This document shows positions 27,705 to 46,779 of a stretch of 64,000 nucleotides of DNA, piece by piece. Position 1 is the first letter of the stretch, and each line of letters opens with the position of its first letter. The notes below the pieces were generated by a model. It was not told where the DNA came from and searched no databases. It saw only the letters and a list, made by a program, of their open reading frames with translations. Location of the stretch: assembly GCF_000384815.1 (NCBI RefSeq), contig NZ_ARQF01000020.1:124001-188000 (forward strand), written 5' to 3'. The DNA comes from Halodesulfovibrio aestuarii DSM 17919 = ATCC 29578. GTDB taxonomy: Bacteria; Desulfobacterota; Desulfovibrionia; Desulfovibrionales; Desulfovibrionaceae. A program made the position numbers and the translations under genes.

Positions 27705-28880
27705 ATGCATAATTACAACAAATCAATGATATGGAACATGACAAGAAACTGTAATTTTCAATGTTCATACTGTTATTTTCCGCATACTAACGGTAAAATA
27801 ATAAATTATATCTCTATTGAAACGTTACTTCGCTTTCTTAATAAGAATAATAACAGCTGGCTAGTTAACATGACTGGAGGTGAACCATTTCTATATCCTA
27901 ATTTCGTCTCACTTTGTGAGCAACTTACACAAAAGCATTACATAGGGGTAGATACAAATCTTAGTTTATCAGCCCAGATAAAAGAATTTGCAAAAAGGGT
28001 TTCTCCATCAAAAGTTAATGATATCTATGCGTCGTTACATATTGAAGAACGTGAAAGAAAAAATGCAGTCCCACAATTTATTCAAAATTACCATATCCTT
28101 GCTAGTGCAGGATTCGCAATTAAAGTTAATTACGTACTGCATCCTTCGCTGGAAAAACGATATCCTGATGACATTTCATTTTTCAAAGAGAACGGAGTCC
28201 CCATTACGCCTCGCCCGTTCAAAGGAATCTACAACAATCTAAAATATCCACAGAATTATTCCCAAACCATCAAAAATATATTTACAAGCCACCCTGCTGC
28301 GGGAACAAAAATGGTTTTTAACTTCCGTGGGATAGACTGCAAAAGTGGCTGTTCATTCATTCGAATGGAACCTAATGGGACAATCTTCCGCTGCCCGGGG
28401 GATAGAACCGTTCTCGGCAATATTCATGACAATGTTACACTCAATGCAGGTGCCACTCCTTGTGCGGTAGACAGGTGTCCATGCCAAGGCATCAACTATG
28501 TAGACCTGAACCCGGCAGAGGGATGGTTTATTGAGGGAATGCGGTCATTTATCACTGGTTCAGAAAAGAATGCCGAGCATGCCTTCCGCCAAACGTTGCT
28601 CTATGACAGCGAACATTCCAGCGCATTGAATAATATTGGCGTATTCGCTTTCGATAGTGGAGATTATACGCATGCCAAACGCCTTTTTGAACATGCCCAT
28701 AATATTCATCCACACATTCCGCTATATAAACAAAATCTTTCTATACTAGAGGGTGTTATCAACGAGAAAACAACTTCCAGTATGCATCCGGAAGTAAGTG
28801 AAATAGTACGCCCGTGTGCAACTACAGCCGAATACTATGTTACGACCGGGCAAGCGATACCAATGGCAGAGGAAAATTAG
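27705..28880 (+). CDS. radical SAM protein with SPASM-like cysteines and TPR tail
   Basis: The 391-residue protein has the radical SAM cluster motif CNFQCSYCYF (Cys16, Cys20, Cys23) followed by the SAM-binding GGEP segment (TGGEPFLYP). A second cysteine-rich region, CKSGCSFIRMEPNGTIFRC then CAVDRCPC, resembles auxiliary-cluster (SPASM/twitch) domains that act on peptides or carbohydrates. Residues about 275-345 form tetratricopeptide-like helices (AEHAFRQTLLYDSEHSSALNN, GDYTHAKRLFEHAHNIHP). It is the first gene of a 19-kb co-directional cluster of glycosyltransferase and export genes. The substrate is unknown; modification of a peptide or sugar precursor would fit. Coding AT content appears somewhat higher than in its neighbours. 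Confidence 0.85.
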   Translation: MHNYNKSMIWNMTRNCNFQCSYCYFPHTNGKIINYISIETLLRFLNKNNNSWLVNMTGGEPFLYPNFVSLCEQLTQKHYIGVDTNLSLSAQIKEFAKRVSPSKVNDIYASLHIEERERKNAVPQFIQNYHILASAGFAIKVNYVLHPSLEKRYPDDISFFKENGVPITPRPFKGIYNNLKYPQNYSQTIKNIFTSHPAAGTKMVFNFRGIDCKSGCSFIRMEPNGTIFRCPGDRTVLGNIHDNVTLNAGATPCAVDRCPCQGINYVDLNPAEGWFIEGMRSFITGSEKNAEHAFRQTLLYDSEHSSALNNIGVFAFDSGDYTHAKRLFEHAHNIHPHIPLYKQNLSILEGVINEKTTSSMHPEVSEIVRPCATTAEYYVTTGQAIPMAEEN

Positions 28881-28994
28881 AGGTTTAACATCCTGTATTA
28901 CAAAAACAATAATACTCTTTTCCCCCATAATGATTCACAGACTTAAATACTTGCATACGACTGTGAACTTCTTACCAAGGTGCAGCAATTACTC

Positions 28995-30200
28995 ATGAGT
29001 TCTACATATAACATCCTCATGTATTCCCATGATACTTACGGACTTGGGCACATCCGAAGAACAATGGCTATCGCACGGAACTTAAGCGCTCCCGGTGTTA
29101 ATATTCTTATCCTTACAGGATCCCCCATTGCCGGCCGCTTCCCGATTCCCTTCGGGGTCGATTTTGTGCGTATTCCGGGTATGATCAAACAAAGCAACAC
29201 TGTCTATGTGCCTCACTCCATAAAAGTAAACCCCCAGAAGGCATTGGAAATACGGCAAGAGATAATTACTGCCACAGCAAAATCCTTTGATCCGGATCTC
29301 TTCATCGTGGACAAAGTTCCCGTAGGACTCAAAGGGGAAGTTCTGCCCGTGCTCCAATGGTTTAAAACTTCACGTCCTGACACTAACGTCGTGCTCGGAT
29401 TGCGTGATATTTTAGACGATTCTGCATCAACACGTGCAGAATGGAATGACAAAAACTACTTTAATGTGCTGGAGAACCTGTACTCGGAAATATGGATTTA
29501 CGGACAAGAAAATTTTTACAATCCTATTGTTGAATACGGACTGCCCTCCTCCATAAGCAATAAATGTGTCTTTACCGGCTACATCCCCCGCGAGACCCCA
29601 AATAAAAAAATCACCCTCAAGCACCTCCTGAACGGAAACGGGAACGGGATCAATGACTCCTGCAAACTGATCGTTGTCACTGCAGGCGGCGGAGGTGATG
29701 GCTACCACATGCTGGATACCTACCTTTCAATGGTAGAAGAAACGCCGGATCTTCCGTTTAAAACCTATATGGTATCGGGACCTTTTGTCCCCCAGGACTT
29801 GCAGGACTCTCTTGCAAAACGAGCCAAAAAGGCTGGCGTAATCTTCGCTACCTTCCATAAAAGGTTAGAAAAAATTATGGCGGCAGCAGACCTTGTTGTG
29901 AGTATGGGCGGATACAATACCATCTGCGAAATTTTGTCCCTTAAAAAAACGTCGCTCATTATCCCACGTGAAAGTCCGCGTCTGGAGCAACTCATCCGTG
30001 CAAGGGTATTACAATCCGCCAAACTGGCAGACTACATTAAATGGGACTGCCTCACCACGTCTTCACTGCGTGACAAAGTAATCACCATGCTGGAAGACTC
30101 TTCGCAATACGAACAAAGTATCAACGCATTTTCCATGACTGGACTTGAAATCATCCGTTCTCGGCTCTCCGAATTCAAGGGAGACACCATCGATGCATAA
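28995..30200 (+). CDS. predicted glycosyltransferase, MurG-like GT-B fold (COG4671 type)
   Basis: The roughly 401-residue protein opens with ILMYSHDTYGLGHIRRTMAIA, the GHxxR-type motif of MurG-like glycosyltransferases and of the COG4671 group. Its C-terminal donor domain has VVTAGGGGDGYHM and VSMGGYNTICEILSL, the glycosyltransferase family 28 signature region. The start is either GTG 28980 or ATG 28995; ATG is preferred but neither has a strong ribosome site. The protein resembles the product of the gene at 33314 in the same cluster. The last 8 bases overlap the next glycosyltransferase gene. Donor and acceptor are unknown. Confidence 0.82.
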   Translation: MSSTYNILMYSHDTYGLGHIRRTMAIARNLSAPGVNILILTGSPIAGRFPIPFGVDFVRIPGMIKQSNTVYVPHSIKVNPQKALEIRQEIITATAKSFDPDLFIVDKVPVGLKGEVLPVLQWFKTSRPDTNVVLGLRDILDDSASTRAEWNDKNYFNVLENLYSEIWIYGQENFYNPIVEYGLPSSISNKCVFTGYIPRETPNKKITLKHLLNGNGNGINDSCKLIVVTAGGGGDGYHMLDTYLSMVEETPDLPFKTYMVSGPFVPQDLQDSLAKRAKKAGVIFATFHKRLEKIMAAADLVVSMGGYNTICEILSLKKTSLIIPRESPRLEQLIRARVLQSAKLADYIKWDCLTTSSLRDKVITMLEDSSQYEQSINAFSMTGLEIIRSRLSEFKGDTIDA

Positions 30201-31557
30201 CACTCCAACGCTCGGTATGATCCTGAAAGGGTATCCCCGCATATCAGAAACTTTTATTTCCAATGAAATAAAATTGTTAGAAGAGCAAGGCTTTACCATT
30301 CATATTTTTTCAATGCGGAAACCGCGTGAAAAATTTTCGCATAAGTCTGTAAAATCCATCCACGCAACAGTTACCTATCTTCCGGAATATCTTTCTCTTG
30401 GATTCCCACGTCTGCTGTGGAACACGCTCTTATGTGCCCTTCTACACACAACCACATTCTGTAATACCTTTAAATTTTTCCTCTCCCGCTTTTCAGGAAC
30501 CAATAAAGTACATACATGGATCAAACACTTTATGCAGGCGTGTGTAGTTGCCAATAATATTGAGTCTAAAAACATCACACACCTTCACAGCCATTTTGCG
30601 CATACCCCGACATCTGTCGCCATGTACGCAGCAAAACTTGCCGGCATTCCGTTCAGTTTTACCGCACATGCAAAAGATATTTACACGCAACATCCCAAAC
30701 GGGTTGCAGAAAAAATGCAGCAGGCACTGTTTGCCGTTACATGTACAAAATACAATAAACTTGCCTTAGAAACGATTGCTCGTTCTTTCCCTGCGCCTAA
30801 AGCACCACCACACTATGCGCTGCCCCCCATAGAGGACGGCTCTCCCATACGGACTCCACAGCCCGGCTACTGTCCGGTACATACTATCTATCACGGGATA
30901 GACCTATCCCTTTTCTCTACCAGACAAAACGGTCTCACTACCCATACGCCCTATTCAATTCTTACCGTGGCCCGTCTAGTGGAAAAAAAGGGGCTGGACA
31001 CAATCTTAGAAAGTCTGCGTCTTCTCTTTTTACGCAATATCCCATTCAGATACACACTTATTGGTGAGGGCCCGCTTCTCGGTAAACTTGAAGAGATAGT
31101 CTACAAGTATGGACTAACAGATTTTGTTCGCTTCACCGGCACGCTGCCTCACGAGGATGTGCTGCGCCATTACCGCAAAGCCGATGTGTTCCTTCTCGGA
31201 TGTACAACAGCGCAGGATGGAGACAGGGATGGTATTCCCAACGTACTGGCAGAAGCCATGGCAATGGGAGTCCCTGTTGTTGCAACCCGTGTTTCAGGAA
31301 TTCCTGAGCTCGTAGAACACAATAAATCAGGCTTGCTTGTTCCATGCAACAACGCCGAGGAACTGGCCAAGGCCACAGAATGCCTGCTCACCGATGAAGC
31401 TCTGCGGCAGACCATCATTTCCGGTGCCGAACGTAAGGTTCATAAAGTCTTCAACAACAGACAGCTAATTGTACAGCTCGGTAATATTTTTGAAGAAAAT
31501 GGTATCACCAGAGAGGAAGCAGATACAATGTCAGAAATGGAGTGGTCATCTTCATGA
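30193..31557 (+). CDS. glycosyltransferase family 4 protein
   Basis: The 454-residue GT-B enzyme has KGYPRISETFISNEI at its N-terminus, a motif common in exopolysaccharide GT4 proteins. A THLHSHFAHTPTSVAMYAAKLAGIPFSFTAHAKDIY-like region (quoted here only in outline) includes the acceptor-site THAHAKDI-type histidine. The nucleotide-sugar site contains TVARLVEKKGLD, and GIPNVLAEAMAMGVPVVATR carries the EX7E-type signature. ATG 30193 follows an AGGGAGA ribosome site; the frame is open to 30145. It overlaps both neighbours (8 bases before, 4 bases after), so it is translationally coupled. Confidence 0.9.
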   Translation: MHNTPTLGMILKGYPRISETFISNEIKLLEEQGFTIHIFSMRKPREKFSHKSVKSIHATVTYLPEYLSLGFPRLLWNTLLCALLHTTTFCNTFKFFLSRFSGTNKVHTWIKHFMQACVVANNIESKNITHLHSHFAHTPTSVAMYAAKLAGIPFSFTAHAKDIYTQHPKRVAEKMQQALFAVTCTKYNKLALETIARSFPAPKAPPHYALPPIEDGSPIRTPQPGYCPVHTIYHGIDLSLFSTRQNGLTTHTPYSILTVARLVEKKGLDTILESLRLLFLRNIPFRYTLIGEGPLLGKLEEIVYKYGLTDFVRFTGTLPHEDVLRHYRKADVFLLGCTTAQDGDRDGIPNVLAEAMAMGVPVVATRVSGIPELVEHNKSGLLVPCNNAEELAKATECLLTDEALRQTIISGAERKVHKVFNNRQLIVQLGNIFEENGITREEADTMSEMEWSSS

Positions 31558-32663
31558 AAATTGCGTTCTGTACCCCGTTCAAACCGCTGACACACCCGCG
31601 CATATCCGGCGATGTGACTATTGCGGAAGATTTAGCGACGTTTTTCCAGAATCAAGGGCACGAAATATGGATCGTACCTCAATTATCCACTCGGTATATT
31701 TGGAAACGACCTCGCAACTGGGGACATATCTACGCAACCATGCAGCTTGTTAAAGAAAATATACAAAACGAAAAACCGGATGTGTGGTTTACATACCACT
31801 CATACTACAAGGCACCAGATATTCTCGGCACTATGGCAGCAAGAGAACAAATACCTTACGCAATATTTGCCCCTTCCCACGCTCCAAAACGAAAAAAGGA
31901 CTGGAGCACTAAGCCGGGGTATTACCTCAATAAAAAAGCACTGCAACACGCAACACATATTTTTGCGAACAAACAACGAGACCTTGAGGGACTAAGCCAT
32001 ATTGTCCCGCCAAGTCATCTCACTTTCATTCCACCCGGAATCCGCACAGATATTTTCACACGGAATGAAACGTTGCGCGCAGAAAAACGCACTGCATGGA
32101 ATGCAACAGACAGTATTGTTGTGCTGACAATTGCCATGCTGAGAAAAGGAACAAAATCAGAAGGTGTGGAACACGTCATCACCGCCTGCAGTGACCTTGC
32201 ATATCAAGGGCACGACATCAAACTGATCATTGCGGGAGACGGCGTTATGCGTCCATATCTGGAAGAAGTCGCGCATAAGTTCTTACCAAACAGGCACATA
32301 TTTTTAGGCATCGTCCCTTCTAAAGAGCTGCCGGCACTCTATTCCAGTTGCGATATTTTTGCCTTCCCCGGCATAAATGAAGGTCTTGGCATGGTCTATC
32401 TGGAAGCGCAAAGTTGTGGGTTACCAGTTGTGGCGTGGGATCATGATGGAGCACCGCAAGTGGTCAACAATGGCACTACAGGCATCATCACTCCATCGTA
32501 CGACAATAACGCGTTTTCACAGGCTATAGGCAAACTTGCAGCATCGCCAGACCTGCGAACGGCCATGGGTGCAGCCGCAACAAAACATACTGCGACAAAT
32601 CATAACATCCGGCAGAATTATGCCGAGTTAGACGCAAAGCTTCGAGCCATTGCACAACAGTAA
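31554..32663 (+). CDS. glycosyltransferase family 4 protein
   Basis: The 369-residue GT-B protein starts MKIAFCTPFKPLTHPRISGD. It has a Rossmann donor domain with VLTIAMLRKGTKSEGVEHVI, a conserved IIAGDGVMRPYLEE strand and the GT4 signature FAFPGINEGLGMVYLEAQSC (EX7E). ATG 31554 gives a classic ATGA overlap with the preceding GT4 gene; an upstream in-frame GTG at 31542 is less likely. Together with the neighbouring transferases it should add successive sugars to one glycan. The sugars cannot be named from sequence. Confidence 0.9.
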   Translation: MKIAFCTPFKPLTHPRISGDVTIAEDLATFFQNQGHEIWIVPQLSTRYIWKRPRNWGHIYATMQLVKENIQNEKPDVWFTYHSYYKAPDILGTMAAREQIPYAIFAPSHAPKRKKDWSTKPGYYLNKKALQHATHIFANKQRDLEGLSHIVPPSHLTFIPPGIRTDIFTRNETLRAEKRTAWNATDSIVVLTIAMLRKGTKSEGVEHVITACSDLAYQGHDIKLIIAGDGVMRPYLEEVAHKFLPNRHIFLGIVPSKELPALYSSCDIFAFPGINEGLGMVYLEAQSCGLPVVAWDHDGAPQVVNNGTTGIITPSYDNNAFSQAIGKLAASPDLRTAMGAAATKHTATNHNIRQNYAELDAKLRAIAQQ

Positions 32664-32696
32664 CAACAGTCAAGACGACATACGCCAGAGGTTACC

Positions 32697-33314
32697 ATGA
32701 AACAAACGTATATTGGTCTCCTACGCCATGCCCCCACAGGATGGAACTCTGTCAAACGAATTCAGGGACAACATGATGTTTCACTTCCGCAAGAAAGTTA
32801 CGATATCATCAGCGAATGGATTCCATCCATCATGCAATATCCATGGACACGTATCCTCACCAGTGATCTTGCACGTGCCTACCATACCGCGCTTGCACTT
32901 AACAAACATACAAACGTTCCTATTGAACGTGATCCTCGCCTACGTGAACAAGATTGGGGAGCATGGGCAGGTCATACCATTCAGGATCTGCGCGAAACGA
33001 CCCCCGAAGAAATAGCACGTCAGGAAGCTGCAGGATGGGAGTTCAAACCACCGGGCGGCGAAAGCAGGATAGAGGTACTTAACAGGACCCTTGAAGCGAT
33101 GCATGAAGCAACCCGACGATGGAACGGAGAACACATCTTGATCGTAACCCATTATGGCAACATTGCGTCCATTGCCAACCACCTCATGCATACAAAGTTC
33201 CTTCCCGAAGAAGGAAAGCTTATCAAAAAACATGCACTACATCGCCTGATTGCAGAACAAACTGCACCTGAAACAACACAATATTCAATCCTCTCCATTA
33301 ATGAGGTGATCTGA
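32697..33314 (+). CDS. histidine phosphatase superfamily protein
   Basis: The 205-residue protein is a phosphoglycerate mutase-like phosphatase. The catalytic motif is LLRHAPTGWN (RHA in place of the common RHG), the second half has DPRLREQDWGAWAG with the proton-donor Glu, and VTHYGNI holds the second catalytic His. In a glycan cluster a phosphosugar or lipid-phosphate substrate is likely; related enzymes include CobC and GmhB-like phosphatases. An AGAGG ribosome site precedes the ATG. The stop overlaps the next start by one base (TGATG), so the genes are coupled. Confidence 0.85.
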   Translation: MKQTYIGLLRHAPTGWNSVKRIQGQHDVSLPQESYDIISEWIPSIMQYPWTRILTSDLARAYHTALALNKHTNVPIERDPRLREQDWGAWAGHTIQDLRETTPEEIARQEAAGWEFKPPGGESRIEVLNRTLEAMHEATRRWNGEHILIVTHYGNIASIANHLMHTKFLPEEGKLIKKHALHRLIAEQTAPETTQYSILSINEVI

Positions 33315-34516
33315 TGCGCGTAGTCCACTACTGTCAGCATGTGCTCGGCATGGGGCATTTTTTCCGCAGTCTGGAAATAGACAAGGCTCTCGTTGATCAT
33401 GAAGTAACACTTGTTACCGGCGGCACTCCTTTATCCATCACCTACCCCCCGCATGTACAAGTAATCGAACTGCCCCCTCTTTCCATGGACGAAGAGTTCG
33501 GAGCCTTCATCCGTACAGATAAAGACGGCTCCAAACATATTCTCTCAGAAGCAGAGCTTGAAATCATTAAACTCCAGCGTACCGACATTCTTACTGAAAC
33601 ACTCAAGGCATTGCAGCCCGATGTTTTTTTAATTGAACTCTTCCCGTTCGGACGCAAGCAGTTCAGTTTTGAGCTTATGCCCGTCCTTGAACTCGCCAAG
33701 CAAAATGCATTTCCCAACATGTACACCATATGCAGTGTGCGTGATATTCTTGTAGAAAAAACGAAACAGCAACAATTCGAAGAACGTGTACTTTCTATCC
33801 TGAACTCATATTTCGATGCTGTTCTTGTACATACAGACCCGAAAGTTATCACGCTGGACGCCACATTCCCCCGTATTAACGAGATCACAATTCCGATCTA
33901 CAACACCGGATACATAACACCACTTCCACACGATCTCTGCCCTGAAGCAGTGCGAGAATCCCTTTCTATCACACCTGATACGCCATTCATTCTCGGCAGT
34001 ATCGGCAGCGGATCTGTACATCCGGAAATCATGCAGCAACTCGCAGCCGCCTCTATTTTGCTCAACAGAACCACCCCGCACAGACTGCTGATTTCCACTG
34101 GTCCTTTTATGCAACCTGATGCCCGAACACGCATTCAAGAGCTTTGCGCACCGTACCCGCACATTACTGTTACTGATTTTATCTCTGATTTCATTACACA
34201 TCTCAGCGCAGCCGATCTCTCCCTTAGTATGGCCGGATACAATACAACAATGAATCTGCTGGCAGTAGACACGTTCGGACTGGTTTTTCCTTTTGATCAA
34301 AATAGAGAACAACGCATGCGATCAACCAGCCTTGAAAAACTTGGAGCACTCAAAATTCTTGAACAGAAAGAGATGGAACCAGACCGCCTCAGCGCAATAC
34401 TTGAGCAGTATGTCAACACTCCTGCGCCACCGCCGCAACACTACGTTGACCTGCAAGGAGCAATGAAGTCTGTTCGGATATTGGAACAACTATTACAAAG
34501 TAAGGCCGTTGGGTAA
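33314..34516 (+). CDS. second predicted MurG-like glycosyltransferase (COG4671 type)
   Basis: The 400-residue protein begins MRVVHYCQHVLGMGHFFRS, the same GxGHxxR-type motif as the gene at 28995 but with Phe-Phe-Arg replacing the usual pattern. The C-terminal half has ILGSIGSGSVHPE and LSLSMAGYNTTMNLLAVDT, matching the donor-binding region of GT28-like enzymes. The two proteins probably arose by duplication and could act on successive steps. GAGGTGA lies 5 bases before the ATG. It follows the phosphatase with a one-base overlap. Confidence 0.82.
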   Translation: MRVVHYCQHVLGMGHFFRSLEIDKALVDHEVTLVTGGTPLSITYPPHVQVIELPPLSMDEEFGAFIRTDKDGSKHILSEAELEIIKLQRTDILTETLKALQPDVFLIELFPFGRKQFSFELMPVLELAKQNAFPNMYTICSVRDILVEKTKQQQFEERVLSILNSYFDAVLVHTDPKVITLDATFPRINEITIPIYNTGYITPLPHDLCPEAVRESLSITPDTPFILGSIGSGSVHPEIMQQLAAASILLNRTTPHRLLISTGPFMQPDARTRIQELCAPYPHITVTDFISDFITHLSAADLSLSMAGYNTTMNLLAVDTFGLVFPFDQNREQRMRSTSLEKLGALKILEQKEMEPDRLSAILEQYVNTPAPPPQHYVDLQGAMKSVRILEQLLQSKAVG

Positions 34517-34600
34517 CTCGAAGCTTACACTACCCGCCCCTTTGAAATCAGTTTATTTTTTATGATAAATGATACGTTGTGAACCGTGGGAGGGAACACT

Positions 34601-35404
34601 ATGGCAAAACAACGACCGTACATTTCAGCACTATGGCATGCAGTCCCTTCCAACATTCAAGAGTTGCTTGCACAGACCATCCAAGCTGGTGTGGAAGCCC
34701 ATAAAACCAATGGGCGCCCTATGGGAAAAATTCCGTCAATATTTTTTCGCGCAGATGACATCGCTATCCCTTCAACAGCCTGCCGGAACATGCTTCGTAT
34801 TTTTGCTGAATACGACACCCCTCTGGGGCTGGCAGTTGTTCCCGCATGGAGCACTGCCGCCCATGTTGAGGCACTGTTGTCAGTCGCACCTGAGAAAAAT
34901 CACCTCTGGTGCTGGCACCAGCACGGCTGGTCTCACGTGAACCATGCAACGCATGGCCGAAGCTGCGAATTTGGCAACGACAGAAAACATGAGGAATGTG
35001 CTGAGGAGTTGCAACAAGGTCATGACACCCTGAAATCATTGTTCGGTGATACGTTCTATCCGGTATTCACACCACCGTGGAATAGAATTTCCGACTCGAA
35101 CATCCAAATTTTAAAAGACATCGGTTGGAAAGCAATCTCCCGCACAGCTTCTGCACCCTATCAAAAGATTTTACCGGATATTCCGGTTAATGTTGATCTG
35201 CACACACGGAACGAACTGACTGCAGCAAGCGGTTGGAAGGGATTACTGGCAGAGCTGCGTGCCGGAATTGCCTCCGGCCGTTGTGGAGTAATGATGCATC
35301 ATGACAGAATGAACAGCGCCGCCGAGGAGTTTCTGCAACGCCTGCTGATAATCTTACAAAGCTACCCCGTACAGCCTGTTCCCATATATTCCTATATGCT
35401 ATGA
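34601..35404 (+). CDS. polysaccharide deacetylase-like protein
   Basis: The 267-residue protein shows a NodB-like layout: a paired-aspartate motif in FFRADDIA (about residue 50), a HxxxH metal motif in WHQHGWSHVNH (about 110-120) and FTPPWNRIS for motif 3. The fold should remove acetyl groups from an N-acetylated sugar. There is no signal peptide, so action is on a cytoplasmic, probably lipid-linked, intermediate. ATG 34601 is chosen over GTG 34586 because GGGAGGG lies between them at the right distance. An 84-base gap separates it from the preceding gene. Confidence 0.8.
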   Translation: MAKQRPYISALWHAVPSNIQELLAQTIQAGVEAHKTNGRPMGKIPSIFFRADDIAIPSTACRNMLRIFAEYDTPLGLAVVPAWSTAAHVEALLSVAPEKNHLWCWHQHGWSHVNHATHGRSCEFGNDRKHEECAEELQQGHDTLKSLFGDTFYPVFTPPWNRISDSNIQILKDIGWKAISRTASAPYQKILPDIPVNVDLHTRNELTAASGWKGLLAELRAGIASGRCGVMMHHDRMNSAAEEFLQRLLIILQSYPVQPVPIYSYML

Positions 35405-35480
35405 TGGTGGTTACTCATTATTTTGCTCAACCATAGAACGCAACATTATTGCATACAGGCCGGACAGACTACCTGCTTGC

Positions 35481-35511
35481 ATATTTTCAGAAAAAATTTT
35501 CCATGAAAATA
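35481..35511. promoter_or_regulatory. AT-rich inverted repeat before the transport half of the cluster
   Basis: TATTTTCA (35482-35489) pairs with TGAAAATA (35504-35511) across an A/T-rich loop. It lies in the largest gap inside the cluster (35405-35550, 146 bases). It could be an operator or weak terminator dividing the glycosyltransferase half from the export half; the function is not shown. Confidence 0.35.
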
Positions 35512-35550: not shown

Positions 35551-36243
35551 ATGCCGGAACAATCGTCACACACCGGATTTTTCACCCACGAGGCAGGCCA
35601 GAGTATCGGCTTTCCGTGGAGTAAATCTTTTGACTTTGCGGTTCAAAGTTTGCGGAACCGGTTCACACGCTCACTTATTACTATGAGCAGTCTAATCCTT
35701 GCGGTTGCTTTTCTTGCATTCATTTTGGTCAGTCTGGACATCGCCACAGGACTTATCAAATTCGGCGGCTCCCAGTTTGCCTCACTCCTCACAGAAATGG
35801 GGTTTGATGTTAACACCGCCCTCGGCACGGTAACAACCGGCCCTAAAGAACGCTGGATCGTCCTTCTCTCACTTCTCGTATGCACCGTCGGTATTATCAA
35901 CGCACAACTTATGTCCGTTACCGAACGGTTCCGTATTATCGGTATATTCAAATGCCTTGGAGCGCTTGATTCCATCATCTTGCGCCTATTCCTCATAGAA
36001 GCAGCGCTTATCGGCATCATCGGTGCCGCAATAGGTGCTGCCGCAGGCATTGCCTTTGCGTTCCTTAACGGTCTGGTAAATTTCGGTGTAGCATCGTTGA
36101 TTCTAGTATCGCTGATGAATGTCTTCATCTCGTTTCTTATTGCTACGGGTACAGGATTTGCGTTGAGCATTATCGGTGTATTGTACCCTGCCATTCTTGC
36201 TGCACGCATGGAACCAGTAAAAGCACTTAACGCACAGCACTAG
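35551..36243 (+). CDS. short FtsX-like ABC permease subunit
   Basis: The 230-residue membrane protein has the four-helix FtsX/MacB topology. Helix 1 (about 42-65, RFTRSLITMSSLILAVAFLA) is followed by a short external loop of only about 50 residues, then three C-terminal helices. It carries the cytoplasmic coupling segment SVTERFRIIGIFKCLGALDS, typical of MacB-type permeases. It lacks the big periplasmic domain of LolC/MacB, so that part is presumably supplied by the 1658-residue partner encoded at 37871. A TAGGAA ribosome site precedes the ATG. A SAM methyltransferase gene starts 9 bases downstream. Confidence 0.83.
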   Translation: MPEQSSHTGFFTHEAGQSIGFPWSKSFDFAVQSLRNRFTRSLITMSSLILAVAFLAFILVSLDIATGLIKFGGSQFASLLTEMGFDVNTALGTVTTGPKERWIVLLSLLVCTVGIINAQLMSVTERFRIIGIFKCLGALDSIILRLFLIEAALIGIIGAAIGAAAGIAFAFLNGLVNFGVASLILVSLMNVFISFLIATGTGFALSIIGVLYPAILAARMEPVKALNAQH

Positions 36244-37871: not shown

Positions 37872-40800
37872 TGAACTCCATCTTTACCATACCGCCCCAT
37901 AAGGGTTCCACCGCACCAAACATAATGATCTTCATTATGCTCTGTCTTATACTCTGCACTACAGTTCAAACTGGCTATGCACGTAAGTCCACAAACAGCG
38001 ACAGGAAATTCAAACTGACCACAACGGCTCTTTCTTTACTGCAAGAAAGGTTCACAGGGTCGCAAGGTGCAAAAGAAGCAGCGCGCTTTATCCATGAACA
38101 ACTCAAAACAGACTTTTCTGCCCATAAGTCTGTGACAACCGGTATCCAGTCATATCTCTTGCCCGTTACCCACTTCAAAGTAGGTACCCTTAGAAGAACA
38201 GACACATTACACCAGCAAAGTATAACGCTTCCCCCCTTGCGCCTCAATGCGGTCACACCATCAACCACCTCGGAAAAAGGCATCACAGGGCATGTAATAT
38301 ACGTTAAGGGGGGAGAGCTTGCAGAGTTCAACGGCAAGGATGTGCAGGGTGCTATCGTCATTATGGATTTAGCATCCGGAAAAAACTGGATTAATGCGGC
38401 ACAACTTGGTGCATCTGCACTCATTTATGTAGATGAAGGAAACGCCACGCCTCCTACCAAAGCACTCTTTAACGATAAGTTTGAACTTACGCCTATCAAC
38501 TTTCCCCGATTCTGGATCTCCCGCGAAAAAGCTGCGGAGTTTTTTGGTGACCTTAACTCGCTATACGAACAAACGCTGCCGAAAGATCCGGTAACAAAAG
38601 TCACAGTTTCCGCCAATATTGAATGGGTTCAGGCAGAAGGCGAAAACGTCTGGGCTTTTATTCCCGGCACAGGCACAGATGCCGACAGCAAATTTATGCT
38701 CGTAGAAGCGTTTTATGATGCAGCCGCATTTGTTCCGGAACATGCCCCCGGAGCAGATGAATCGACTTCTATTGCAACCTTACTGTCCATTGCTGAGCAA
38801 CTAAGAAAGAATCCGCCGAAAGCATCCGTACTGTTACTTGCCACATCCGGCCACTCACAGAGCAATGCGGGGATGCGCTCTTTCGCGTCGCTATTAACGC
38901 AAAAGCTGAGTGATATAAAAGACTCTTCTACTCAACTTGCTCAAAAAGCATCAGATACCAGAGACACCATCGCACTTCTTCATAATCCAGAGCTATTCTC
39001 CACACCGGAATCTTTGAATATATATTCATCAAGGGAACGTGAACTTTTTCGCACTGCATTGGATTCTGTATCCAAAACGCAAGTTGACCTTTTCACCCGC
39101 GAAGTTGTCCGGTTACGCCTTGCGGCAACAGGTTCAAGTGAAGATTCTAAACGAATTAAAGAACTGGCGGCAAAACGCCTTGAACTCAGAAACGTGGTCT
39201 GGCTAAGTTCAAAAGTACAAGCACAAAATCCTGTTCCACCTGAAGAACTTAGGATCTTGCGCAACTTGGTATCTCTTGCGCTTGCAGAACAGCAGGAAAG
39301 ATTTGCAGATCTCATCATCCGGTTACGCAGCGCAGACAGCAAACTCCTCCTGAAAGAAGCCATCGGCGAACGCACCATGCAAGCAGGATTCGGACTCTAT
39401 CTATCTACCCATGGCACTGGTGTCGGCGGATTTACTCGAGGATATTTATATGAATTGAAAGCGAGTATTAACCGCACATCATTCTTCAGTCCATTGTCTG
39501 AGCTGGTGACTGAAAACGCTAAGAAACTGCCGAACTACGATACATTATGGCAAGATTCGCTTCATCCGACTCCAACGACACCATGGCAAAGTTATCTTCC
39601 GGATCTCCCAACATTCGACAGCGAAGTTCTGGCGATTGCGGGCTTTCCGATGATCAGTATTGCCTCACTTCACGATTTCCGTCCGCTATGGGGAACCCCG
39701 CACGACGTTCTGGCAGCAACAGACCAAAAATATGCACTGGAACAGAATCAGTTCGTCACGTCGCTTATTGCCAACATTGCAAATGAAAGTCTGCCCGATA
39801 TTGAACGAGGCAGAAACGGCCTTGCCACACTGGGAGGAAGTGTCAACCTGCAAAGACAAGGAGAACCTTTTCCAGATAAACCTGCCGTAGGCACACTGGT
39901 TCTTACTTATCAAGGTCCTTCCCGTTTCTACGCCATGGTTAACACGGACGGCAGCTTTGAATTGCCGGGGCTTGCCACATCACAGCAAACCATCCATAAG
40001 GCTGTCATAGAAGCGTATAAGCTCGCTCCGGATACTGGTCTAGCAGTGTGGGCCGTGGATAAGCCGAGTACCGGCAAAAGCAATTACCGTGTCAAAATGC
40101 GCCGCAATACTATGGGAACCCAACTCACCATGTTTGATTGTGCGCAATCAACTCTTTTCAATTTACTTGATGCACGGACACTTGCGTACTTATATCGAAC
40201 TGAAATTATTGATGCACGAACTGAAACCAGTCCGTTACGCTACTGGTATTCAAGACTGGATACTCGTGATTCTACGCTGGGGACTTTTTTCCTTGAGCCG
40301 GACGTCCCGTTCAAGCTCACCCTTTCGGATACTGTCCTCGGTAAAAAAGTTCTGCTGCTAAACAACACCCAGAAAGACCCGCTTGGCAAAGGCTATCTTA
40401 TAAGTAAATGGCCCGTCATTCCGTTCACAGAATACCATGCCGCGAAAGACATGTGGACACTACTCATCCCCCGGATCAAAAATCTGGAAGAAAAGGGCAT
40501 CAACAACGAGCGAATTTCCAATCTGTATCAACAAGCACAACTACTGCTTGAGCAAGCAGAACAATACTACCAGCAAAAAGACTGGGTTGGTCTGATGAAC
40601 ACATCACGAGCATCCCTTGCTACGGCTTCTCTTGTTTACAATGATATTGAAGGAACCCAAAGGGACGTTCTCTCCGGTGTACTTTTCTATATTGCTCTGT
40701 TTGTGCCGTTTGCCTATTGCCTTGAACGTCTGTTCTTCGGTTTTTCCTCCATCTACAAACGCATTATTGCGTTCCTCGGCCTACTCACGGTTACTATTAT

Positions 40801-42847
40801 TCTAGTTTATTTTGTTCATCCGGCATTCCAGCTGACCTACAGCCCGCTCATTGTTATTCTGGCATTTTTTATCATCGGGCTTTCGTTTCTTGTGTCCATG
40901 CTCATATTCCTGCGCTTCGAACGGGAGGTCAAAATTTTTCAGGAGCAGGCACACAATATTCGAGTAACGGAGGCAAACAAGAGTGCAACTTTTGTAGCAG
41001 CTATGGCTATTGGAGTAAGCAACCTGCGCCGTAGACCTCTGCGTACAGCACTGACAATTACAACACTCACAATCCTGACATTCACTATTATGAATTTTAC
41101 CTCCACCAAAAGTATACGCACTGCCGGATGGGTAGAATTCAGCACTTCAGCGCCATACTACGGCCTGCTTCTTAAGAATCCTAACTGGCGGGATATGCCG
41201 GTTGAAACATTACAAGTAACAAATGATCTGTTCGGCCAAGAAGGAATCATCGCCCCGCGCGTCTGGTTCGAAATCGAAGACAAAACCCGTGCCCCGTTCC
41301 TGCCGATGAAATACAACGGGAAGGAATCATCCGCACGGGCACTTATCGGACTAGCCCCTTCTGAAAGTGATATGAGTTCATTACGCAAACATCTTGTATC
41401 CGGCTCATGGTTTAACGAAAGCGACCAGCACTCCATTATCCTGCCGGAAGAGATCGCAAACCAGCTGGGCATAACACACGTAGGGGCCATTGCGCCTAAA
41501 ATCACCTTTTGGGGAATTCCCTATACAGTACGCGGCATTATTAAAAACAAGGCACTTGCAGAAAGCAAAGATCTTGACGGCGAACCGATTACGCCAATCA
41601 TTTATCCTAACATTGCCGCCTCTGACCTAAGCGAAACCGAGGCGGAAGCGTTGAACCGTGGAGAAGACTTACTCCGCTATGAAAGCCGGTACGAACACAT
41701 AAGCGGCGCACGCACGGTTATCATTCCAGCACGCACCCTTCTTTCTGAAGGTGGCTCCCTTAAAGCTGTTGCTATTAAAACAGGGAAAGACAAACCCGAT
41801 GATGTTAACCATGGTTTACTGAACCTTGGCTACCGATTCGGTATGCTTGTATTCAGCGGTACAACTTCGGGGACATATTTATATTATGCTTCGAATTTCA
41901 TCAGTTACAGTGGCCTCTCCGCTATTCTCATTCCTATCGGCATTGCGGTACTGATCGTTTTAAACACCATGATCGGTTCTGTGTATGAACGACGCGGTGA
42001 AATTGGTGTATACACATCTGTAGGGTTGGCACCGTCTCATGTTGCCTTCCTCTTCGTGGCAGAATCACTAGCCTTTGCGGTTATCAGTGCTGTCTTCGGC
42101 TATCTCATAGCACAAACTGTATCCGGATTTATGGCCGGCACAGAACTATGGGCAGGTATGACTGCCAACTATTCATCCACAGCCGGTGTTATGGCCATGC
42201 TGCTCATCATTATTGTTGTACTCATATCCTCGATATATCCTTCCAGAGTTGCATCAGAAATTGCTATTCCAGACGTCACCCGTGCATGGAAACTTCCGGA
42301 AGCGGTAGGCGATGTCATGCGCATTGAACTGCCGTTTCTCGTAAGAAGCTCAGAGCAGGCCTTCGCCGGAGGGTTCCTGTTTGAGTACTACAACGGACAT
42401 GCTGGCATATCACATGGCGCCTTTTCCACTCAGGATATTACGTGCAGCTTCCTGCCTCCGGATAATCTTGTTGAACAGGGACTCATTCCTGATTCAGTTC
42501 AACAGGACACCGCAGGCGACGCCTGTCTCACCTTTGATTTCAAAACATGGCTTGCTCCCTTTGACTTTGGGGTGCGCCAGAACGTGCAGCTTATTATGTG
42601 CCCGTCTGAATCGCATCACGGGTTTAAAGAAATCCATGTCATTCTTACCCGCGAAGCAGGAGAAAAACGCGTGTGGCAAAACCTTAACAAGCCGTTTCTG
42701 CATGGTTTGCGCAAGCAGCTTCTTGTATGGCGGTCTATAGAAAAAAGCGCGCGCTCAACCTACGAAAGAGACTTAAAAACCGCCCTTGCTAAAAAGGGGA
42801 AAGACATCCCGCACACAGCGATAGAGAACAAAGGAGATAGCGCATGA
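37871..42847 (+). CDS. giant FtsX-type permease with degenerate M28 peptidase-like ectodomain
   Basis: This 1658-residue membrane protein starts with a hydrophobic signal/anchor (about 17-36). Residues about 45-640 look like an M28/PA-domain peptidase: a PA-like insert (GHVIYVKGGELAEFNGKDV) and then FMLVEAFYDAAAF, GADESTSIATLLSIAEQL and LLLATSGHSQSNAGMRSF. In active M28 enzymes these segments contain HxD, ADDNASG and EE; here they read FYD (281-283), ADES (295-298) and GH (327-328), so the zinc ligands are mostly lost. Three helices lie at about 935-1020, an FtsX helix at about 1055-1075, a MacB-like periplasmic domain at about 1080-1340, and three final helices at about 1350-1460 with the coupling segment SVYERRGEIGVYTSVGL. 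A soluble C-terminal tail of about 180 residues follows. It is coupled to the ATPase before and the transporter-like gene after. Confidence 0.85.
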   Translation: MNSIFTIPPHKGSTAPNIMIFIMLCLILCTTVQTGYARKSTNSDRKFKLTTTALSLLQERFTGSQGAKEAARFIHEQLKTDFSAHKSVTTGIQSYLLPVTHFKVGTLRRTDTLHQQSITLPPLRLNAVTPSTTSEKGITGHVIYVKGGELAEFNGKDVQGAIVIMDLASGKNWINAAQLGASALIYVDEGNATPPTKALFNDKFELTPINFPRFWISREKAAEFFGDLNSLYEQTLPKDPVTKVTVSANIEWVQAEGENVWAFIPGTGTDADSKFMLVEAFYDAAAFVPEHAPGADESTSIATLLSIAEQLRKNPPKASVLLLATSGHSQSNAGMRSFASLLTQKLSDIKDSSTQLAQKASDTRDTIALLHNPELFSTPESLNIYSSRERELFRTALDSVSKTQVDLFTREVVRLRLAATGSSEDSKRIKELAAKRLELRNVVWLSSKVQAQNPVPPEELRILRNLVSLALAEQQERFADLIIRLRSADSKLLLKEAIGERTMQAGFGLYLSTHGTGVGGFTRGYLYELKASINRTSFFSPLSELVTENAKKLPNYDTLWQDSLHPTPTTPWQSYLPDLPTFDSEVLAIAGFPMISIASLHDFRPLWGTPHDVLAATDQKYALEQNQFVTSLIANIANESLPDIERGRNGLATLGGSVNLQRQGEPFPDKPAVGTLVLTYQGPSRFYAMVNTDGSFELPGLATSQQTIHKAVIEAYKLAPDTGLAVWAVDKPSTGKSNYRVKMRRNTMGTQLTMFDCAQSTLFNLLDARTLAYLYRTEIIDARTETSPLRYWYSRLDTRDSTLGTFFLEPDVPFKLTLSDTVLGKKVLLLNNTQKDPLGKGYLISKWPVIPFTEYHAAKDMWTLLIPRIKNLEEKGINNERISNLYQQAQLLLEQAEQYYQQKDWVGLMNTSRASLATASLVYNDIEGTQRDVLSGVLFYIALFVPFAYCLERLFFGFSSIYKRIIAFLGLLTVTIILVYFVHPAFQLTYSPLIVILAFFIIGLSFLVSMLIFLRFEREVKIFQEQAHNIRVTEANKSATFVAAMAIGVSNLRRRPLRTALTITTLTILTFTIMNFTSTKSIRTAGWVEFSTSAPYYGLLLKNPNWRDMPVETLQVTNDLFGQEGIIAPRVWFEIEDKTRAPFLPMKYNGKESSARALIGLAPSESDMSSLRKHLVSGSWFNESDQHSIILPEEIANQLGITHVGAIAPKITFWGIPYTVRGIIKNKALAESKDLDGEPITPIIYPNIAASDLSETEAEALNRGEDLLRYESRYEHISGARTVIIPARTLLSEGGSLKAVAIKTGKDKPDDVNHGLLNLGYRFGMLVFSGTTSGTYLYYASNFISYSGLSAILIPIGIAVLIVLNTMIGSVYERRGEIGVYTSVGLAPSHVAFLFVAESLAFAVISAVFGYLIAQTVSGFMAGTELWAGMTANYSSTAGVMAMLLIIIVVLISSIYPSRVASEIAIPDVTRAWKLPEAVGDVMRIELPFLVRSSEQAFAGGFLFEYYNGHAGISHGAFSTQDITCSFLPPDNLVEQGLIPDSVQQDTAGDACLTFDFKTWLAPFDFGVRQNVQLIMCPSESHHGFKEIHVILTREAGEKRVWQNLNKPFLHGLRKQLLVWRSIEKSARSTYERDLKTALAKKGKDIPHTAIENKGDSA

Positions 42848-44820
42848 ACACGTTACGGCTCCCCGCTCTAGTCTTTGCTATTCTTCTCGGTATACTTATG
42901 TGCGCAGCCGGGCCATTCAACACTGCATGGCTCGGAGGAACGCCACTCGGCGGCGGGCACTTCCCCCTCGCCCCCTTCTTTATTTCCTTTATCTTATTTA
43001 TTGTTACAGCAATTATTGCCGCATCAACAAAGACAAATCCCATACTCAACGGCACAGAACAACTTGTCACATGGTTATTTATGGTCATCGGAATTGGTAT
43101 TGGCTATTCCGGCCTTGCAGAATCATTTTTTCTTAATATTACCGCACCAATCTATTACCAGAGCGGCGGCTACAGCTGGGTCAAGACGCTAACTCCGTAT
43201 CTTCCAGACTCGTGGTACATGAACAGTCCCTCCGTAGTAAAACCGTTATATGAAGGTTTTGTCGGTGGACACGACATGAGCATCCTGCAGGTAGTACAAC
43301 AAATTCCATGGGCTGCATGGACAGGAGTTATGACACTATGGGGGTTGTTCATTATGATGGCATACCTCACCATGCTCTGCCTCGTTAACCTGTTTGGCAG
43401 ACAGTGGATAGAAAATGAACGCATAAACTTTCCACTCCTACGCGTGCCGCAATTTTTGAGTGAAGCACTAGATGCCGGGAAGATGCGCGAGTTTCTTACA
43501 AATAAATTCCTCTTGTGGGGCATCGGAATTCCGGTGTTTCTCCACATGATTAACGGGCTGAGTTATCACTATCCATCTATCCCGCAACTGCCGCTGCTGG
43601 TTCTTGCCGGACAATATTTCCCCAAATATGGTCTTTTTTCCGGCTTTAATAAGTTACAATTGTATATTGTTCCTGCGTACATCGGCTTTGCGTTCCTTGC
43701 CACACGACAAATTGCATTCAGTTTCTGGTTCTTCTACATCTTTGGCGCACTTTTCATGGGAATATTGTATGTTATGGGATTCAATGTTCCCCAATCTGCC
43801 ATGGGCATTACCTTCGGTCCCAACCTTGCCCGTCCGGCAGAAGCTACAGTTATCGGTGCCACATTCATATTCTTCCTGTTTATTCTCTGGCTTGCCCGTG
43901 AACACTTAGTCAACGTCTTCAAGACGGGACTTCACAATACAAAAGTTTACCAAGGTGAAATTATACCTGCTACATGGTCACTTTGGGGAGCTGTTATCGG
44001 CATCGGCGCAATGATGGTCTGGTGTCATTCGTTCGGTATGTCTATCGGCGGCTCAGTTATCATGCCAGTTGCATTTTTTATGATTCTGCTAGTTGTATCA
44101 CGCGTTATTACACAAGGTGGATTGCCACAGTTTATGCTCACAGCCGCCCCCTCCGACGGACTTACCTCAATATTGGGAACCCGCTTTCTGGGAATGGCCG
44201 GAATTGCTCTCACGACTGTTATGCAGAAGATGATGTTTCTTGATGTGCAAGAGTCGCTTATGCCGAACCTTGTGCACGGTAATAAAATTTCCGAGCACAC
44301 AAAAAGCAAACGACGCTTCTTTATCGCGCTGACAATCTTGCTTGCCTTGTGCGTATGCACAGCATTTTGTTCAATGCTTATTCTTGGATACAAAACAGGT
44401 CTGCGCGATTTAAAACTGGAAGTGCAAACGCAGTCAGTCCTCTCTATTTATGAAAATGCAGGCAGACTGATTGACGCACCACTGAGTGCGAATTCGTGGA
44501 TCACCTCGTTTGCAATCGTTGGTGCTATAGTCATGGGTGTCCTTGTATTCTGCTTCTACAAATTTCCATGGTGGCCGCTTCACCCTTTAGGCTTTCTTGC
44601 AGCCTACAGCAAAAGCATGCGTATTCTCTGGGTCTGCTTCTTTCTTGGATGGCTTTGTAACTATCTGGTACTGCACTATGGCGGCACTGCCCTCTATAAA
44701 AAAGTACAAATGACTTTTGTGGGACTCATTATCGGCGATATGCTTATGGGAGGAACGTGGGCTATTGTAAGTTTATTCTCCGGAATTGTGTATCCAGTCT
44801 TTCCAGTGCTGGGAGGATAG
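42844..44820 (+). CDS. polytopic membrane protein, DUF6785/DUF6784 (OPT-like)
   Basis: The 658-residue protein is hydrophobic throughout, with about 14-16 predicted helices. Features such as GGGHFPLAPFFISF near the N-terminus, an NERINFPLLRVPQFL loop and FLHMINGLSYHYPSIPQLP fit proteins annotated DUF6785 followed by DUF6784 that are related to oligopeptide (OPT) transporters. I assign this from memory of the family and without a search. It overlaps the giant permease by 4 bases (ATGA) with a GGAGA ribosome site, and the second OPT-like gene begins 3 bases after its stop. The transported substrate is unknown; a lipid-linked or peptide-linked glycan would fit the cluster. Confidence 0.7.
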   Translation: MNTLRLPALVFAILLGILMCAAGPFNTAWLGGTPLGGGHFPLAPFFISFILFIVTAIIAASTKTNPILNGTEQLVTWLFMVIGIGIGYSGLAESFFLNITAPIYYQSGGYSWVKTLTPYLPDSWYMNSPSVVKPLYEGFVGGHDMSILQVVQQIPWAAWTGVMTLWGLFIMMAYLTMLCLVNLFGRQWIENERINFPLLRVPQFLSEALDAGKMREFLTNKFLLWGIGIPVFLHMINGLSYHYPSIPQLPLLVLAGQYFPKYGLFSGFNKLQLYIVPAYIGFAFLATRQIAFSFWFFYIFGALFMGILYVMGFNVPQSAMGITFGPNLARPAEATVIGATFIFFLFILWLAREHLVNVFKTGLHNTKVYQGEIIPATWSLWGAVIGIGAMMVWCHSFGMSIGGSVIMPVAFFMILLVVSRVITQGGLPQFMLTAAPSDGLTSILGTRFLGMAGIALTTVMQKMMFLDVQESLMPNLVHGNKISEHTKSKRRFFIALTILLALCVCTAFCSMLILGYKTGLRDLKLEVQTQSVLSIYENAGRLIDAPLSANSWITSFAIVGAIVMGVLVFCFYKFPWWPLHPLGFLAAYSKSMRILWVCFFLGWLCNYLVLHYGGTALYKKVQMTFVGLIIGDMLMGGTWAIVSLFSGIVYPVFPVLGG

Positions 44821-44823
44821 ACC

Positions 44824-46779
44824 ATGTATCAAGATAAAGAATTACAAGAATATCGTGATCTACTTCAGCCACCTACCGAGTTTGAGCAAGGCTTTGACTG
44901 GAAAACCATAATCGGTGCCATATTTATTGGCTTCCTGATGATGCCGGGCAGCATGTACTTGCAACTCGTCATCGGTCAGGGCATCGGCCCTGCTGCGCGC
45001 TGGGTTACGATTATTCTCTTCGCAGAAGTAGCAAAGCGTTCGTACACCGAACTAAAACAACAGGAAGTATTTCTTCTATTTTACATGGCAGGTGCCGCTC
45101 TTGCATCACCATTTTCGGGTCTATTATGGAACCAGTACCTTGTGCAGTCGGACGCTGCAAAGATGCTCGGACTCACCGAATTTATTCCTACATGGATTGC
45201 ACCTCAACCCGGTTCAGAAGCCCTCACAGGAAGAACCTTTTTTCATCAGGACTGGCTCATCCCGATATTGCTTCTTGTGGGTGCGCAAATAGTTCAGCGA
45301 ATTGACCACTTCGGGCTGGGCTATGCTCTCTACCGCCTCACATCCGATGTAGAAAAGCTACCGTTCCCGATGGCGCCAGTGGGAGCCTTGGGCACTATGG
45401 CACTGGCTGAGTCAACTGAAGACCGCAAATCCGGTTGGAAGTGGAGAACCTTCTCTATTGGCGGTGTCATCGGACTTGCCTTCGGTTTTTTCTATATACT
45501 GCTTCCGGCACTCTCCGGCTTGCTTTTTGAAGAACCCATACGCTTAATTCCAATCCCGTGGATTGAACTGACACGCCATACGGAAGCTGTTCTTCCTGCA
45601 GTGGCGACAGGGTTACAGTTCGATCTGACGCTGGTCTTTGTGGGTATGGTACTCCCTTTCTGGGCAGTTATCGGCGGACTTGTGGGGCTACTTGTTACCA
45701 TAGCCGCCAACCCTATCCTATTTGATATAGGCATCCTCCATCGTTGGAAACCGGGAATGGAAACCGTTGAAACAGTTTTTGCAAACAACTTTGACTTCTA
45801 CATGTCCTTTGGTATCGGGCTAGGGCTTGCCATTGCCATCATCGGTATCTGGCAAGTAATCCGTTCTTTCAGATCACAAAGTGGCGATCTGGACTTTTCG
45901 AAACTCTTCAACCCGCCCGCAGGACGCGGTGATATTAACTTCTGGCTTTCCATAGGCATATACGTCTTCTCGACCGTCACATACACACTTATCTGCCGCT
46001 GGCTTGTTCCTAGTTTCCCCTGGATTTTTTTCCTGCTCTACGGTTTTGTCTACACTCCTATAGCATCATACATCAGTGCCCGTATGGAAGGTATTGTCGG
46101 ACAATTTGTCTCTCTACCGTTCGTACGTGAAGCAAGTTTTATAGCCGGAGCAAAGTACTTTGGATATAGCGGAATAGAAATCTGGTATGCTCCGATTCCG
46201 TTACATAACTATGGGGAGGCAACGGTACAATTCCGAGAAATCGAACTTACCGGCACAAATCTGCGCGGTATCATCAAGGCAGAGTTTGTAGTCTTTCCGA
46301 TTGTAATTATAGCCTCTCTTCTCTTCTCACAATTTCTGTGGAGACTGGCTCCAATTCCGTCGGCAAGTTACCCTTATGCTCAAAAAATATGGCACTTGCA
46401 GGCATTAAACTCACTCCTTCTGCAATCGTCCACCCTTGAAGGAAACTCTCTCTTCTATCAGGCTCTGAGTCTTTCCTATGTGGGTTCCGGTATCGGTCTC
46501 GGACTTATCATGTATGCATTCCTGTCCGTATTCGGGCTCCCAGTCATGCTTATTTATGGCGTTGTACGCGGACTTGGGCAATCCACACCTCACGGAATAA
46601 TTCTGGAAGTTATCGGTGCTCTTTTAGGCCGCTACTTCTTCTTGAAAAAATACGGCAAACAATGGCGACATTATGCTCCAGTCCTTCTTGCCGGATTCTC
46701 CTGCGGCATGGGACTCACCGGTATGCTTGCCATGGGCTGCACACTTATCCTGAAATCGTTAAGTCAGCTTGCTTACTAA
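44824..46779 (+). CDS. second OPT-like polytopic membrane protein
   Basis: The 651-residue, roughly 15-helix protein is related in layout to the preceding one. Recognisable stretches include GQGIGPAARWVTIILFAEVAK, QQEVFLLFYMAG, EKLPFPMAPVGALG (similar to the LPFPxA.. motif of OPT transporters) and VEAFANNF-like VETVFANNFDFYMSFGIG. A GGGAGGA ribosome site lies 6 bases before the ATG. The two proteins may form a heteromer. This is the last gene of the cluster; a hairpin follows 72 bases later. Confidence 0.72.
   Translation: MYQDKELQEYRDLLQPPTEFEQGFDWKTIIGAIFIGFLMMPGSMYLQLVIGQGIGPAARWVTIILFAEVAKRSYTELKQQEVFLLFYMAGAALASPFSGLLWNQYLVQSDAAKMLGLTEFIPTWIAPQPGSEALTGRTFFHQDWLIPILLLVGAQIVQRIDHFGLGYALYRLTSDVEKLPFPMAPVGALGTMALAESTEDRKSGWKWRTFSIGGVIGLAFGFFYILLPALSGLLFEEPIRLIPIPWIELTRHTEAVLPAVATGLQFDLTLVFVGMVLPFWAVIGGLVGLLVTIAANPILFDIGILHRWKPGMETVETVFANNFDFYMSFGIGLGLAIAIIGIWQVIRSFRSQSGDLDFSKLFNPPAGRGDINFWLSIGIYVFSTVTYTLICRWLVPSFPWIFFLLYGFVYTPIASYISARMEGIVGQFVSLPFVREASFIAGAKYFGYSGIEIWYAPIPLHNYGEATVQFREIELTGTNLRGIIKAEFVVFPIVIIASLLFSQFLWRLAPIPSASYPYAQKIWHLQALNSLLLQSSTLEGNSLFYQALSLSYVGSGIGLGLIMYAFLSVFGLPVMLIYGVVRGLGQSTPHGIILEVIGALLGRYFFLKKYGKQWRHYAPVLLAGFSCGMGLTGMLAMGCTLILKSLSQLAY

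Follow-up and report, generated by a model that had tools for sequence, protein, structure and literature searches.

The stretch of Halodesulfovibrio aestuarii DSM 17919 analysed here, a window of 64,000 nucleotides on contig C20 (NZ_ARQF01000020.1, positions 124,001 to 188,000) of a 3.55 Mb genome that is 99.99% complete, contains at 27705-46779 a co-directional cluster of 13 plus-strand open reading frames (ORFs), g01 to g13. The cluster consists of two conserved modules, one for glycan synthesis (g02-g07) and the other a membrane machine (g08 and g10-g13). A reading of the window made from the sequence alone had proposed that glycan synthesis and a LolD/FtsX machine belong together, and their near-complete co-retention in two genome sets bears this out: the cluster is confirmed as a real functional unit beyond chance, because the modules co-occur almost perfectly in both. 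We consider it about evenly balanced that they form an envelope glycan system in which the first module builds a glycan and the second moves it.

Co-occurrence was followed mainly through the GT28-C-type glycosyltransferase g02 (28980-30200), the giant permease g11 (37871-42847; 1,658 amino acids) and the orphan polytopic membrane protein g13 (44824-46779). Among 395 genomes of the phylum, the giant g11, g13 and close relatives of g02 were all found in the same 28 genomes, which represent 12 families and 20 of 246 genera. Matches to g11 occurred in 38 of the 395, of which ten had the FtsX domain alone and were excluded from the count of giants; in G135, G233 and G390, which are among the 28, g11 was matched as two pieces split over contigs. 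Close relatives of g02 were those scoring at least 313 bits, a threshold set post hoc at a gap between 313 and 232 bits, and weaker relatives were present in six further genomes. The chance of an exact coincidence would be about 10^-43 by genome or 10^-29 by genus under an assumption of independence that fails; the coincidence in 28 genomes is no accidental matching, and the figures show nothing more than this.

The pattern was replicated in 348 genomes of the class, where g13 was found in 103, g02 in 104, both in 102 and neither in 243, with 98 of the 102 double positives new relative to the phylum sample. One genome had g13 alone and two had g02 alone; the giant was checked in nine genomes of this set. 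In G668, which has g02 but not g13, the giant is present and ends about 2.5 kb before the end of a contig, at the position where g12 and g13 would be expected, and in G680, which has g13 but not g02, the giant is present in a genome that is 82% complete, such that both exceptions fit assembly gaps. G400 carries a g02 relative (31-41% identity, in a single ORF of 425 amino acids) and no giant, with an MsbA-type exporter nearby.

Individual components were scored, at thresholds of our choosing, in the surroundings of g11 in 26 other phylum genomes and in additional stretches (unlinked parts, and G390), giving 29 scored genomes, namely 27 from the phylum set and two named Halodesulfovibrio. Six components (g02, g03, g10, g11, g12 and g13) were present in all 29; the remaining counts, which are minima for the stretches fetched, were 27 for g08, 26 for g04, 24 for g06, 12 for g07, 11 for g05, and two each for g01 and g09. 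Within the genus Halodesulfovibrio itself g02 and g13 were found together in seven of ten genomes, and the other three (G584, G585 and G590) have none of g02, g13 and g11; the cluster has therefore been gained or lost within the genus.

Physical linkage of the modules was far looser than their co-retention. Of the 102 class genomes with both markers, 41 have g02 within 30 kb of g13, 27 have the pair on one contig at a distance above 50 kb, and 34 have it split between contigs, in some cases perhaps because of fragmented assemblies; altogether, 61 genomes show a separation above 30 kb or two different contigs. In 19 of the 27 other genomes of the phylum set the fetched exporter stretch did not include g02 (which is about 22 kb away in G088), and 16 of the 19 unlinked g02 stretches hold g02, g03 and g04 together; the others show g02-g03 (G254 and G390) or g02 alone (G088). 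The machine also divides in places, with g12-g13 apart from the giant in G254 and G295, and g13 apart from g12 in G073. The sequence-only reading held that scattering of these genes would count against a joint system; the genes are indeed scattered in most class genomes that have both markers, but both modules are kept, and the core of the synthesis module mostly stays intact where it is unlinked.

The 13 genes, their order and most of the families first assigned to them were upheld by a mechanical ORF list and by Pfam, on which the assignments below rest, supplemented by motifs for g01, g05, g07 and g10, by a tree for g02 and g06, by genome counts for g02, by profile search for g11, and for g13 by conservation and null family searches. 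The synthesis module begins with g02, a universal component that we take to be COG4671-like, followed by two GT4 glycosyltransferases, g03 (30145-31557) and g04 (31542-32663), a histidine phosphatase with RHA and HYG motifs, g05 (32697-33314), a second GT28-C-type glycosyltransferase, g06 (33314-34516), and a polysaccharide-deacetylase-like protein with RADD and HGWSH motifs, g07 (34586-35404). ORFs of the cluster overlap by 56, 16, 1, 19, 1 and 4 bases; starting g03 at the internal Met17 (ATG at 30193), its probable start, would reduce the first of these to 8, and alignments of g03 homologues begin at about residue 19-25.

Counterparts of the synthesis module were found in alphaproteobacteria. 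A search of plasmids returned 276 records with a g02 relative, some of which, for example in E. coli, are probably other glycosyltransferases. The four alphaproteobacterial loci read share the glycosyltransferase order of the cluster: plasmid loci of Sulfitobacter and Azospirillum have the full order of GT28, GT4, GT4, histidine phosphatase, GT28 and deacetylase, and those of Phyllobacterium and Sinorhizobium meliloti pSymB have a reduced order of GT28, GT4 and GT28, lacking the phosphatase and deacetylase. They differ from the cluster in what accompanies the module, which in all four is an ABC_membrane/MsbA-like exporter together with Dpp-type ABC genes, including in every case a double ATPase gene with an oligo_HPY domain and, confirmed in two, a family-5 solute-binding protein. 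The top NCBIfam match of the Sulfitobacter exporter is MsbA, far under the model cut-off. The Sulfitobacter and Azospirillum exporters (L087 17045-20149 and L088 1334-4480) combine a weak ATPase match with a cyclic-nucleotide-binding domain. The S. meliloti counterpart was compared with the msbA2 operon, which PMC3687685 places at 930-960 kb of pSymB, and this identity was rejected, as homologues of g02-g07 are absent from that interval.

In a maximum-likelihood tree of 65 glycosyltransferases, g02 and g06 fell in separate clades containing three and four alphaproteobacterial sequences, respectively (the Azospirillum g02 was excluded by our filters), and the g02/g06 pair therefore predates the split. 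The g02 sequences of 29 machine-bearing genomes formed one clade with support of 99/99; the machine-bearing G026 fell outside it.

The membrane machine has the signatures of the type VII ABC (FtsX/MacB/Lol) superfamily, with PF00005 in g10, PF02687 in g08 and g11, and the ATPase motifs. The ATPase g10 (37131-37871) is of LolD/MacB/DevA type, with Walker A and B, LSGGQ and His-loop motifs, and its closest models are LolD, MacB and similar ones, all scoring under their cut-offs. Two permeases carry the FtsX domain: g08 (35551-36243) is a small protein of 230 amino acids with a near-absent periplasmic part, and the giant g11 comprises, in order, an N-terminal hydrophobic segment, a PA domain whose Pfam match sits just below the cut-off, a pseudo-M28 aminopeptidase domain, a long periplasmic part, extra transmembrane segments, the FtsX permease and a C-terminal domain. 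Sequence profiles assigned the N-terminal part of g11 to the M28 fold (aminopeptidase 2ek8, E 6.1e-16) and its permease end to a MacB/LolF-like group, with YtrF also matched. A working peptidase part in the giant is not supported: at the active-site positions known for M28, all 26 g11 sequences have lost the catalytic Glu pair and have F, P, S, R or A in place of the metal-binding His, with both Asp residues retained. An active M28 peptidase was thus ruled out, and the domain therefore probably binds and does not cut.

The last two machine genes encode polytopic membrane proteins. The first, g12 (42844-44820), passes the Pfam gathering scores for DUF6785 (459.7 bits) and DUF6784 (106.1 bits) and was not found in 14 control genomes; a profile search of the PDB with g12 returned nothing informative. 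For g13 there was no match in Pfam (E<=1), NCBIfam (E<=0.1) or PDB sequences (E<=1), nor in the plasmids searched. Its homologues are 68-97% identical to it, and of the three components that were aligned over similar genome sets it shows the strongest conservation, with mean column identities of 81% (g13), 57% (g12) and 44% (g11). Both proteins had been called OPT-like, a label that the sequences do not support: PF03169 has no match in the H. aestuarii genome at E<=10, a setting at which it matches five of the 14 control genomes, two of them above the cut-off. A single family for g12 and g13 was likewise rejected, with no profile relation between them. A two-part DUF2064 protein, the second half of which is GT2-like by eye, follows g13 in several f71 and f91 genomes (G187, L069 6201-7892, and equivalents).

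A pointer to the role of this machine comes from the genomes that have a g02 relative without it. Seven were found (G323, G243, G056, G117, G014, G355 and G400), and in six of them, G355 being counted as the one without, an ABC_membrane (MsbA-type) exporter lies beside g02; Pfam confirmed the exporter in G323, G117, G014, G243 and G056, and the G400 protein shares 97% identity with its counterpart in G014. MsbA-type exporters carry lipid-linked cargo across the inner membrane. Because g02 relatives without the machine mostly adjoin such exporters, the machine is most likely their substitute in glycan export, and the swap is a tendency that is not strictly exclusive. Two neighbourhoods hold further genes. 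In G117 (L114 5480-9041 and 15116-17591) the g02 relative is flanked on one side by a MacB-type permease/ATPase pair and a PLD-like protein, and on the other, past the MsbA-type exporter, by two APH-type kinases. In the machine-bearing G105 (L046 9037-10212 and 13926-15815) a DegT-family aminotransferase and a PMT-family transferase stand between g07 and g08, in a set that by eye resembles the arn operon for L-Ara4N modification of lipid A, a hint of some connection with lipid A or lipopolysaccharide.

Comparison with characterised exporters placed the machine near several of them and within none. It resembles LolCDE in its LolD-like ATPase and FtsX-domain permeases, but g10 scores 233.6 bits against a LolD cut-off of 307.75, g08 and g11 score 37.5 and 14.7 bits against a LolC/E cut-off of 362.45, and the cluster adds the giant pseudo-M28 domain, g12 and g13; a lolC/E gene above cut-off (407.7 bits) lies outside the cluster on C18. 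MacB is in the same superfamily, but there ATPase and permease are fused, and here g10 and g11 are separate genes. DevBCA, which we take to be the heterocyst glycolipid exporter, also belongs to this superfamily (g10 scores 204.9 bits with the DevA model, cut-off 295.8), but its HlyD-type adaptor was not found among the 13 genes, to which that search was confined. The Wzx/Wzy, Wzm/Wzt and MsbA/PglK systems would be alike in role, but no member was recognised in the cluster; the statement of the sequence-only reading that standard export genes are absent held, as Pfam (E<=0.001) found no Wzx, Wzy, Wza or ABC-2 permease family among the 13 proteins, the search for Wzx, Wzy and ABC-2 covering the cluster, and no Poly_export (Wza-type) domain anywhere in the genome.

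These observations suggest a sequence of steps, of which all those after synthesis are conjectural. A glycan would be built at the cytoplasmic face, probably attached to a lipid or lipid carrier, by g02, g03, g04 and g06, often with g05 and g07. Type-VII ABC motors take their cargo from the outer leaflet or the periplasm; if such a motor replaces an MsbA-type exporter, passage of the glycan through the inner membrane must fall to another protein. Candidates in the cluster are g12 and g13, which may carry or assemble the lipid-linked glycan. The ATPase g10 and the permease pair g08-g11 would form a type-VII motor that extracts the glycan from the outer leaflet, with the dead M28 domain of the giant as a periplasmic binding arm, giving the order synthesis (g02-g07), crossing (g12/g13) and extraction (g08/g10/g11). 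That the glycan is linked to lipid, which way it is transported and how the machine parts share the work are all matters that we infer. Somewhat short of an even chance, and accordingly put forward as tentative, is the proposal that this is an undescribed Gram-negative route of glycan or glycolipid export, in which a type-VII motor with a pseudo-peptidase arm, together with g12 and g13 assuming a flippase and/or polymerase role, replaces Wzx/Wzy or an MsbA-type exporter. A literature search, mostly of open-access papers and excluding preprints, found no mention of DUF6785, DUF6784, COG4671, or a combination of peptidase M28, FtsX and permease.

Several observations weigh against a glycan export system. 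The genomes compared are phylogenetically non-independent, and an in-frame stop occurs in a few of the g02 matches (G088, and eight of 104 in the class set). In G355, whose g02 relative is 25% identical and sits on a very long tree branch, neither the machine nor an ABC_membrane exporter was found; G026, G105 and G254 have the machine plus an ABC_membrane-like gene in the stretches fetched, which in G026 is of the alphaproteobacterial exporter type and sits some 8 kb upstream of g11; and five ABC_membrane proteins are encoded elsewhere in the H. aestuarii genome. No outer-membrane partner was recognised by Pfam among the 13 cluster proteins, a structure prediction for g13 from three sequences reached a pLDDT of 30.5, and a flippase-like role for g13 is guesswork. 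Both export and substrate are deduced from gene content and co-retention, and type-VII ABC proteins can signal instead of transporting. The export interpretation of the first reading is thus supported in part, by the co-retained modules, while export by the machine itself is something we infer.

The capacity for signalling underlies an alternative that we regard as unlikely, though one to be taken seriously, in which the FtsX proteins, ATPase and giant are a mechanosignalling or hydrolase-regulating unit (FtsEX/YtrF-like), the dead peptidase senses or holds peptides, and the glycan leaves by another exporter. FtsX-domain complexes are not always transporters, the periplasmic part of g11 is very large and has lost its peptidase site, the g11 profile also matches YtrF, and the five ABC_membrane proteins elsewhere in the genome could supply the other exporter. 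Against this, g02 and the machine are co-retained almost perfectly, an MsbA-type exporter takes the place beside g02 in six of the seven machine-less genomes, and the large polytopic g12 and g13, present in all 29 scored genomes, suit transport better.

Rather improbable, in our estimation, is a cargo that is a glycosylated lipoprotein or peptide, with sugars added in the cytoplasm and a Lol-like machine delivering the protein to the outer membrane. LolD is the best model for g10 even at its sub-threshold score, the permease is LolF-like, the M28 fold is a peptide-binding fold, and an oligo_HPY (oligopeptide-transporter) ATPase gene is near the module in all four alphaproteobacterial loci. The swap partners, however, resemble MsbA, a mover of lipid-linked cargo, and clustering of recurrent genes showed no conserved lipoprotein or peptide gene, in ORF lists that were noisy and left out ORFs shorter than 90-100 amino acids; around unlinked g02 this clustering was swamped by antisense ORFs in GC-rich genomes. 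The cargo may still contain peptide, given the peptide-like themes of both versions, the dead aminopeptidase fold here and the oligopeptide-type ABC genes of the alphaproteobacterial loci.

The Dpp-type genes near the module in those four loci also raise the prospect that g12 and g13 are their counterparts, importers that recover glycan or peptide fragments while the FtsX motor alone exports; this seems quite improbable, given that g12 and g13 have no detectable relation to OPT and that g13 exceeds both g11 and g12 in conservation, which one would not usually expect of an accessory gene for uptake. That the modules were merely inherited or transferred together, with no functional dependence, would suit the patchy distribution, as in the genus itself, and the potential of clusters to move horizontally, but we hold it to be highly improbable: in 61 of the 102 class genomes with both, the modules are distant or on separate contigs, which hitch-hiking does not predict.

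The remaining two genes of the cluster look like lineage-specific accessories in the stretches searched. The first, g01 (27705-28880), is a radical SAM protein with a CX3CX2C motif at residue 16 and a C-terminal TPR-like part; the radical SAM domain was confirmed, and the TPR match is under the Pfam cut-off. The second, g09 (36253-37149), is a methyltransferase (PF13578). Homologues of g01 were found in these stretches only in L032, L033, G582 and G668; G582, of the same genus, carries both g01 and g09, and in G668 the unlinked g02 has g01 next to it. The full 13-gene order recurs in Halodesulfovibrio spirochaetisodalis and Halodesulfovibrio sp. N3, the two named relatives found, which are also identical in the order of the genes downstream, a compact FdhE-FdhD-MobA-like-MoaA operon (47289-50534) for molybdenum cofactor and formate dehydrogenase maturation. 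Between the cluster and this operon, 70 bp after g13, an 18-pair inverted repeat (46849-46887) is terminator-like on the minus strand only and is a possible 3' boundary of the cluster; 34 terminator-like sites were found, versus 19 expected by chance. Elsewhere in the window, GC content falls to 0.366 at 8001-10000, near a TetR-like regulator (7787-8593, minus strand) and a chemoreceptor-like gene (9104-11527), both named by eye.

The machine occurs in about three in ten genomes of the class (103 of 348, judged by g13), and for its most conserved protein there is neither a family model in Pfam or NCBIfam nor a PDB relative by sequence. If glycan export is true, it would add to the few known routes by which sugars cross the envelope, and a single glycan-synthesis module would pair with entirely different exporters. 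It would also provide a handle on the surface chemistry of sulfate reducers, which is relevant to biofilms and corrosion.

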